This document shows, one piece after another, positions 51,070-63,917 of a stretch of 64,000 nt of DNA. The notes beneath the pieces were generated by a model. That model searched no databases and was not told the DNA's origin. It was given only the letters and a program-made list of their open reading frames with translations. The stretch is from an uncultured Eubacteriales bacterium. GTDB lineage: Bacteria; Bacillota; Clostridia; Christensenellales; Borkfalkiaceae. The stretch is taken from the NCBI GenBank assembly GCA_949747905.1, contig CATKEF010000040.1:1-64000 (forward strand). Direction: 5' to 3'. A program made the position numbers and the translations under genes. The number at the start of each line of letters is the position of its first letter. The first letter of the stretch is position 1.

Positions 51070-51244
51070 AATCCGAACTCCTTTTTGATTTTTATAAATT
51101 ATAGCCTATTTTTGTACAAATGTCAACAAACCGTGTAATTTTCCCGCATTTTTTATTGATAAATCTACGATGATATATTATAATTTCGGTGTTGCCCGCA
51201 GGTTTTTCGGACAGGGCGACGAAAATTCGGTTTTATGGTGCGAT

Positions 51245-57284: not shown

Positions 57285-57439
57285 AATTCCAATTATATAT
57301 TTTTATCGGCGCATGTCAACCGAAAAGCCTAAATGAGCGTCCGCGGCGGTTTTTTACAACGTTTGTCACAATTAACATATCCGCAAGCCGTTATTCGACG
57401 CGTTATGCGCATTTTCCCGAAAATGTAACAAATTATAAC

Positions 57440-61018: not shown

Positions 61019-61044
61019 TGTGCGTTGTTTTTAGTCGGCGTGGT

Positions 61045-61530
61045 GCAGCCCCTTCGATTCGCTCAGGGTGACAAAGAAACAAATACTCAGGGAGATAAAG
61101 AAACAAGTGTTTTGAGTGACGAAATTAACAAAACCTCAGGTTACAAAAACAATGGCTCAGGACGACAAGGAAATAAACGTTAAGAGGGGGATAAAAACAG
61201 GGACTCAGGGTGACATAAAGTCTCTCGGGGTGACAAAGAAACAAAAGCTCGGGGGCAAAAGTCTTTCGGGATGATAAGTTTAGGGGCGATAACGGGCGTT
61301 TATGGCGACAAGAAATCACTCGGGCGAACAATTAAACAAGTGCATATGGTGACGAAGTGAACACGACCTCAGGCTTACAAAAACAAGTGCTCAGGGTGAC
61401 AAAAAGCGCTCGGAATGATTAAAATGCCGCTTGGGGGGGGCTATTTAAACGTCATCCCGAAGGTTTGCTTGTCATCCCGGGCGACGTGAGGAATCAGATG
61501 TTTCGCTGACGCTCAACATGACAATCTTAG
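61045..61530. repeat. Dispersed repeat cluster with decayed tandem array
   Basis: Many imperfect 'ctcagggtgacaaagaaacaa' units, ending in 'gtcatcccgggcgacgtgaggaatcagatgtttcgctgacgctcaacatgac'. Confidence 0.75.
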
Positions 61531-61752
61531 TTAGCTCAGCATAATAAATTTTGGTCGACACGACACGACGGTTATCGCTTTGTACAACAAGCGCTTTTTT
61601 GTCGGCTCGGCATGATGCTTTTTTCAGTTAAACATGATATTATCGGTTAGCTAAAAAGACGCTTTTGAGTTCAATATGATAATTTTGTCGTCCGGCATAA
61701 AAATATGCTAACGCCGTGAACGTCATTCCGAGCGCGGCGGGGAATCTGTTCC

Positions 61753-61787
61753 AAAAAAATACCCTGCGCCAATACGTCGGCGCAGGG
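61753..61787 (-). terminator. Intrinsic terminator of the ncRNA candidate
   Basis: Minus strand CCCTGCGCCgacgtattGGCGCAGGG followed by TATTTTTTTGG. Confidence 0.85.
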
Positions 61788-62090
61788 CTCTTTCTATTAA
61801 ATTTTAATTCGGAATCGCCTCCTTAACGGTTGCCGTTCAGGCTGACGGACCCACCAGTCCATGCGGCTGTCGCCGCAGCTTTATAACCGTACAGCGGAAT
61901 TAAATTCCATTCGTAAACTTGTACATCGGAGTTTACCTTCCTTTTTCTTCTATCGTGGCGGACCAAAGCAATCTCATAGGCTTTACCTCCAAACGATTTT
62001 CCCTTTTCATACAGAAGCGGCTTTAAGAAAGCCGAACCTACGCAAAAATGTCGACGTCAAACATTTTTTGTAAGTTTCTATCCTTTTGTA
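61753..62090 (-). ncRNA. Candidate stand-alone structured non-coding RNA (~330 nt)
   Basis: Minus strand: TTGACA-16-TATAAT promoter upstream, CCCTGCGCC...GGCGCAGGG terminator plus U-tract downstream, and a chain of strong hairpins between them, without a convincing ORF. Confidence 0.7.
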
Positions 62091-62095
62091 CTTTT

Positions 62096-62123
62096 ATTAT
62101 AGCACGGAAATGTAATTTGTCAA
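62096..62123 (-). promoter_or_regulatory. Promoter of the ncRNA candidate
   Basis: Minus strand TTGACA (62118-62123), 16-nt spacer, TATAAT (62096-62101). Confidence 0.8.
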
Positions 62124-63655: not shown

Positions 63656-63687
63656 AAAAACGGTTGCGGAACACGCAACCGTTTTTT
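63656..63687. terminator. Bidirectional terminator
   Basis: AAAAACGGTTGCggaacacGCAACCGTTTTT. Confidence 0.8.
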
Positions 63688-63917
63688 TACCTTGAAAGCA
63701 GCCAGCTTTTGATGTCCTCTCTCGATATAGGCATTACGTTCTCGACGGGATATTTTGAATTTTTTCCGCCGAAAGTGTAAACAAAGTACTTGCCGTCGCC
63801 CGTAACGTATAAAGTCTCTTCGAAGCCGCCCGGGTCGCCGGGCACGCCGTAAGTAAATTTTTTGTCTATCGTGGATGAGGAAGTGTCGTAAACGACTCCG
63901 TCTATTTCAGCCCGCAT
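63687..63917 (-). CDS. Small uncharacterised protein (76 aa)
   Basis: 'MRAEIDGVVYDTSSSTIDKKFTYGVPGDPGGFEETLYVTGDGKYFVYTFGG'; preceded by RBS-like ggaggtgc on the minus strand. Confidence 0.65.
   Translation of the reverse strand: MRAEIDGVVYDTSSSTIDKKFTYGVPGDPGGFEETLYVTGDGKYFVYTFGGKNSKYPVENVMPISREDIKSWLLSR

Follow-up and report, generated by a model that had tools for sequence, protein, structure and literature searches.

A stand-alone structured RNA of uncultured gut Clostridia with a palindromic loop and mini-ORFs that overlap its own helices

The window, the whole 64-kb stretch of DNA that was analysed, contains on its minus strand an RNA gene (about 62092-61754, ~330-335 nt) with a consensus promoter at one end and an intrinsic terminator at the other. 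As judged by comparison with its relatives, the gene has a conserved fold with a palindromic loop, and a fixed layout of mini-ORFs that overlap the helices of that fold. The reading that we favour, tentatively and with a confidence somewhat below even, is that it represents a new family of stand-alone, trans-acting, homodimerising RNAs, the fold of which would be gated by ribosomes on the mini-ORFs.

The RNA gene

The promoter (62096-62123, minus strand) consists of a −35 element TTGACA, a spacer of 16 nt and an extended −10 element TG-C-TATAAT, and matches the consensus at 12 of 12 positions. TTGACA and most of the −10 element are invariant across 30 aligned relatives. Exact copies of TTGACA-N15-18-TATAAT occur three times in the window against 0.04 expected; the other two (51098-51126 and 57292-57319, both minus strand) possibly serve further strong stand-alone transcripts. 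The predicted transcript of ~335 nt (61754-62092, minus strand), for which homologues are known, takes its start from the position of the −10 element and its end from the T-run. The terminator (61754-61788, minus strand) is formed by a 12-pair stem (61788-61761) and the T-run, giving U7. The 340 nt from promoter to terminator fold at −107.9 kcal/mol (z −3.24), better than 100 of 100 dinucleotide shuffles. An earlier note, made from the sequence alone, had described a structured RNA of ~330 nt with a strong TTGACA-N16-TATAAT promoter on the minus strand and its own terminator; these features, together with the conservation of the relatives, bear it out.

The gene is single-copy in its genome. 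Elsewhere in that genome there are short matches only, and since the two best of these look on inspection like chance similarity in other sequence a multicopy element was rejected. The next gene in the window encodes a dUTPase; it is convergent and lies ~790 bp from the RNA. Degenerate copies of short repeats of the types ctcagggtgacaaagaaacaa and gtcatcccgagcg lie between this gene and the RNA terminator, at 61020-61740, and look like a dispersed intergenic repeat array.

The 5' domain and its palindromic loop

The 5' domain (62035-62076, minus strand), defined by the fold and the alignment of relatives, consists of an outer stem, AACUUAC/GUAGGUU, around a kissing-type hairpin. In relatives the 3' strand of the outer stem usually overlaps the Shine-Dalgarno sequence of a mini-ORF, ORF A, that the window's copy lacks. 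Support for this stem is weaker than for the other parts of the predicted structure.

The enclosed hairpin, AAUGUU-U-GACGUC-GACAUU (62047-62065, minus strand), carries the palindrome GACGUC in its loop at 62058-62053. Its general form is AAUGUU-N-(6 nt)-AACAUU, the six bases being palindromic in the window's genus. The stem AAAAATGT/ACATTTTT had been recognized earlier, and is supported by the comparative data, but the palindrome in its loop had been overlooked. Nine different palindromes occupy the one loop position (GGUACC, GACGUC in the window, GCGCGC, GGCGCC, GCUAGC, GUGCAC, ACGCGU, CGCGCG and CGUACG), and a related group carries AGCGCU, shifted by one base. Under a strict automatic rule, with distant palindrome-free genera included in the count, a palindrome is found in 27 of 46 hairpins, against 6 at most for neighbouring offsets. 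When the palindrome is scored as self-pairs, 97% are paired and each of the three pairs shows double changes; for the hairpin as a whole, none of 500 shuffles attains the observed covariation score. A kissing loop is recognized by self-complementarity that is kept through compensatory change, and this is the pattern found here. The comparison thus points to selection on the palindromic loop, and pairing of the loops of two copies would give a homodimer. The palindrome is absent from three genera (g3, g9 and g5), so that dimerisation may not be family-wide or may use another contact there.

It was also considered that the palindrome might be a DNA operator. This was rejected, since the offset of 1 nt between stem and palindrome breaks the dyad symmetry of the DNA and fits an RNA loop of 7 nt. 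A pairing of GUAC at the 5' end with the start of ORF D was rejected as well, the 5' end being variable in relatives and ORF D constant. The hairpin GGCUUUCUUAAAGCC (62019-62033, minus strand), taken from the sequence and proposed earlier as GGCTTTcttAAAGCC, is found in the window's copy only, or nearly so, and is not conserved in the alignment.

Mini-ORFs and the pairing of ribosome sites

The 53 transcripts compared (24,956 nt) contain 146 Shine-Dalgarno-AUG pairs, about nine-fold more than dinucleotide shuffles (15.9, maximum 27). The statement in the earlier note that the region is without a convincing ORF was wrong, for two mini-ORFs with Shine-Dalgarno sequences, C and D, are conserved in position across genera. 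The window's copy, like some others, has these two sites only. Many relatives also have ORF A (for example MKYK or MHK followed by a stop; 2-4 codons in many of them) and hairpins between A and C. In one relative (L011, genome G073) an ORF A module of ~95 nt, made up of a Shine-Dalgarno sequence, the ORF MTYT with its stop and a GCCGCGAAAGCGG hairpin, is repeated in tandem in the stretch ~90-430 nt from the start of the transcript. Other genera (e.g. L014, L023, L024, L026, L027, L030) have a third mini-ORF with a KG(D/E)TPT-like C-terminal ending; it is encoded by a copy of the start motif of ORF A and ORF D that reads GGAG-N-CUCC-RACG, with ACG in place of AUG.

ORF C (61933-61977, minus strand) reads MRLLWSATIEEKGR followed by a stop, and is assigned from its positional conservation and a moderate coding signal. 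An ORF of 10-20 codons with a Shine-Dalgarno sequence is present at the same place in 52 of 53 relatives, 49 of them with AGGAG or GGAGG. In the window the Shine-Dalgarno sequence is GGAGG (61986-61990, minus strand), and it is predicted to be paired with codons of ORF C itself. The hairpin that sequesters it is formed from GGAGGUAAAGC and GCUUUGGUCCGCC (61952-61997, minus strand), the Shine-Dalgarno stretch GAGGUAAAG pairing with the codons CUUUACUUU (Leu-Tyr-Phe). Relatives show altered yet matching versions (GUAAAU/AUUUAC, GUAAGA/UCUUAC, AGGAGGUAAA/UUUACUUCCU). In a partner-swap test each copy's own 3' arm pairs better than the arms of relatives, re-pairings as good being found 0 times in 2000 within the genus and 21 times in 2000 elsewhere. 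Of the composite stem proposed earlier for 61952-61997, it is the inner part, which pairs the ORF C ribosome site, that the comparative data support.

ORF D (61900-61926, minus strand) encodes MYKFTNGI and then stops. Its Shine-Dalgarno sequence GGAAGG (61936-61941, minus strand) overlaps the end of ORF C, and across the 53 relatives its start takes the form of a conserved Shine-Dalgarno sequence followed by CC-R-AUG. ORF D is mostly 8-11 codons long, and the position of its stop is conserved: it falls at codon 7-11 in 51 of 53 relatives, whereas a stop there is seen in 3 and 10 of the 53 when the two remaining frames are read, a control that is suggestive rather than clean and not fully independent of selection, as ORF D was picked partly for its shortness. 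A stem GTAAAC/GTTTAC at the start of ORF D, proposed earlier, is not supported: some of the relatives lack it, and it shows no compensatory change.

The 3' multibranch domain and tail

The 3' multibranch domain (61811-61908, minus strand) was defined by covariation in an alignment of 33 sequences from the window's genus, which begins where ORF D starts and runs as far as the tail. The helix that closes the domain pairs GGAAUU (61908-61903), contributed by the last codons of ORF D, with GAUUCC (61816-61811). Double changes are found in 16 of the 21 predicted pairs. Paired cells make up 94.0% of the total against 80.9% in shuffled alignments, doubly changed cells number 116 against 38.2, and the covariation score is 0.501 compared with 0.265; in 500 shuffles the observed pairing, double changes and score were never reached. 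Sliding the partner strand by one column lowers the pairing to 43-46%. Compensatory changes, proposed earlier as a check on the fold, are thus present in the 3' domain as they are in the 5' hairpin.

Within the domain the stems GCGGC/GCCGC (61863-61876) and GGAC/GTCC of the earlier description are supported by the comparative data. Two local hairpins are not supported, and each competes with a longer-range helix that covaries: GGAATTtaATTCC with GGAATT/GATTCC (61908-61903 and 61816-61811), and AACGG/CCGTT with a helix of ACGG and CCGT.

In other genera, too, the end of ORF D is paired with the bases immediately 5' of the tail, in changed sequence (AAGGCGUUGU/GCAACGCCUU, GGGCGUUA/UAACGCCC, AGGAACG/CGUUCCU and GAGCGUU/AACGCUC). 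The covariance model of the domain (R2) is weak outside the genus, and what is said of the domain across genera rests on these pairings between the ORF D end and the pre-tail segment, for which the tails in three loci were not located automatically. The tail itself (61795-61805, minus strand) is a conserved single-stranded segment in the alignment, AAAAUUUAAUA in the window (consensus AAAACUNAAUA), with ACAACUNAAUA in other genera.

A proposed mechanism and its alternatives

From this layout we infer transcription, dimerisation, translation, a cascade from ORF C to ORF D and a purpose for the RNA; a ribosome-gated, trans-acting role would be the most economical reading of the overlaps. The loop of the 5' hairpin would pair with its counterpart in another copy of the RNA to give the homodimer. 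A ribosome starting on ORF C would melt the hairpin formed by its own Shine-Dalgarno sequence and its own codons, and would stop over or beside the ORF D site. The final codons of ORF D provide one strand of the helix that closes the 3' domain, and its stop codon is located at that helix, so that a ribosome translating ORF D would next melt it. The 3' domain would be closed when initiation is scarce and open once ribosomes load, and the RNA may in this way act as a read-out of, or a buffer for, initiating ribosomes. If so, it would be an RNA family without a known relative, in which ribosomes drive the changes in conformation of a stand-alone RNA.

The codons of ORFs C and D are themselves strands of the RNA's own helices, and on this basis a further step can be contemplated: a new class of RNA machine, a homodimer with domains that are opened successively by ribosomes on mini-ORFs, the act of translation and not the peptide being the signal. 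We lean somewhat against going so far. No stand-alone RNA of gated mini-ORFs was found in Rfam or in a limited literature search; the single ingredients (kissing loop, paired ribosome site, dual-function RNA) are already known.

The RNA might instead be a polycistronic mRNA for bioactive micropeptides, signals or inhibitors for example, with the structure only tuning translation and the ORF C product 'M..LYFA[KR]T...KGR' as the active peptide. The ribosome sites are strong throughout, the third codon position of ORF C is the most variable (1590/1893/2382), and the amino-acid similarity of ORF C exceeds that of 291 of 300 column permutations. However, of the two out-of-frame controls one does as well as the correct frame. 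The 'LYF' codons, moreover, form the strand that pairs the ORF C ribosome site, so the amino-acid conservation can be a by-product of pairing, explicable without a peptide, which weakens the case for one. The ends of ORF D track the helix and not a peptide, and in many relatives ORF A is no longer than 2-4 codons. We regard micropeptides as an unlikely but credible explanation.

Ribosome gating also has to be set against simple titration, in which an abundant RNA serves as a decoy for the anti-Shine-Dalgarno sequence, binding 30S subunits or storing ribosomes, and the mini-ORFs are a mere consequence. The excess of Shine-Dalgarno-AUG pairs, the consensus promoter and the extra modules of some species, such as the repeated ORF A module of L011, would all suit a decoy. 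It would need neither exact stops 8-11 codons on nor helices that overlap the ends of ORF D, and some copies, including the window's, have two sites only; this explanation appears quite unlikely.

The paired sites of ORFs C and D could also reflect an RNA that is merely untranslated, structured in the manner of raiA or OLE, with its GGAGG-AUG motifs serving as protein- or RNA-binding elements. In one genus the third copy of GGAG-N-CUCC-RAUG reads RACG, so the motif can lack a start codon. Stops that keep a constant distance, and do so in frame 0 alone, are nevertheless hard to explain without ribosomes, as is the full Shine-Dalgarno spacing, and we judge the proposal decidedly improbable.

That the RNA is the leader or attenuator of a downstream gene, either lost or beyond the terminator, is very improbable indeed: paired ribosome sites and short ORFs ahead of a terminator are the parts of a leader-peptide attenuator, but across 53 loci the downstream genes vary in identity and orientation, are often convergent (as is the dUTPase gene of the window) and so give no cis target in common, as the earlier note had supposed from the neighbours of the window's copy.

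Comparison with known RNAs

Nowhere in the window does a match to an Rfam family attain the gathering score, the relaxed matches in the RNA region lie far below threshold, and 20 homologous loci gave no convincing match at the RNA. The earlier note had recognized no signatures of RNase P, tmRNA, 6S or SRP RNA, and this holds: each of these families is found elsewhere in the same genome (6S on contig C32, tmRNA on C57, RNase P on C46 and SRP on C33). The raiA family (RF03072), earlier suggested as the first to try, shares with the RNA its character as a stand-alone structured RNA of Clostridia, but was rejected, as its covariance model has no match in the window, in the 20 homologous loci, in the window's genome or in the listed genomes of the same family (f1). 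Within the order it occurs in other families, 113 of the 397 genomes having it. A sponge for CsrA of the CsrB/RsmZ type was likewise rejected, CsrA (PF02599) being present in none of 21 related genomes while the controls were positive.

OLE, ROOL and GOLLD are large stand-alone bacterial RNAs with their own structure and with functions that are unknown, in which kissing loops join chains (PMC12286853). The present RNA resembles them as a large stand-alone structured RNA with a predicted kissing-loop contact; it differs in its conserved mini-ORFs and in having no match to the Rfam models of these three, or in phage records. In HIV-1, RNA dimerisation begins at a palindrome of six nucleotides carried by an apical loop (PMC7357161). 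The loop described here is likewise a self-complementary apical hexanucleotide, with an adjoining purine in most copies, and some relatives carry GUGCAC or GCGCGC. The analogy is structural only, the RNA being bacterial and chromosomal, its loop 7 nt long (9 nt in two relatives) and its dimer predicted. If it holds, this would be a bacterial case of an HIV-1-type palindromic loop kept by selection.

Like the dual-function sRNA VcdRP of Vibrio cholerae (PMC8672173), which joins a regulatory RNA with a small ORF, the present RNA contains short ORFs, but its several ORFs (2-20 codons) supply strands of its own helices and their peptides are not clearly conserved. Supposedly non-coding RNAs can thus hide conserved mini-ORFs of this size, which gene finders skip. 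Leader-peptide attenuators share with it a short ORF, a sequestered ribosome site, an intrinsic terminator and, on the reading favoured here, a structure changed by the ribosome, but not the absence of a regulated downstream gene, there being no conserved target here.

Distribution and genomic neighbourhood

The sequence matches place the relatives of the RNA in a single family of uncultured gut Clostridia, where several genera have it. Matches by blastn occur in 55 of 151 genomes of the family, in 7 of its 18 genera. An 84-nt model of the promoter and 5' end (A1) was searched against 397 genomes of the order; many weak matches to the promoter were obtained, and with a cut-off of 30 bits the matches listed, all of at least that score, fall only in the same family. 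An origin from phages or plasmids was rejected, as neither collection gave a blastn match to the RNA and viral contigs contain no exact copy of the core motif. From promoter to terminator the transcripts of relatives range from 330 to about 840 nt. They have in common the promoter, the 5' segment, the pair of ORFs C and D, the 3' domain, the ACUNAAUA tail and the terminator.

A protein search with the adjacent antiporter led to further named MAGs, mostly of uncultured Clostridia and Candidatus Coproplasma species, and in most of the close ones the RNA lies divergently upstream of the antiporter gene. In L014, ~130-160 nt beyond the RNA terminator, a segment CCUAUAUGAUAAGGGGGAAAAUG is similar to the conserved UAUGAUAAGGGAAAA motif within the RNA of the window's genus, and sits before another very short ORF. 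In the window, an ORF of 76 aa (MRAEIDGVVYDTSSSTIDKKFTYGVPGDPG...) is found at 63687-63917 on the minus strand. A clear relative of it lies directly 3' of the RNA in L052 and L071, and it would so appear to be a conserved small protein of the lineage that travels near the RNA locus.
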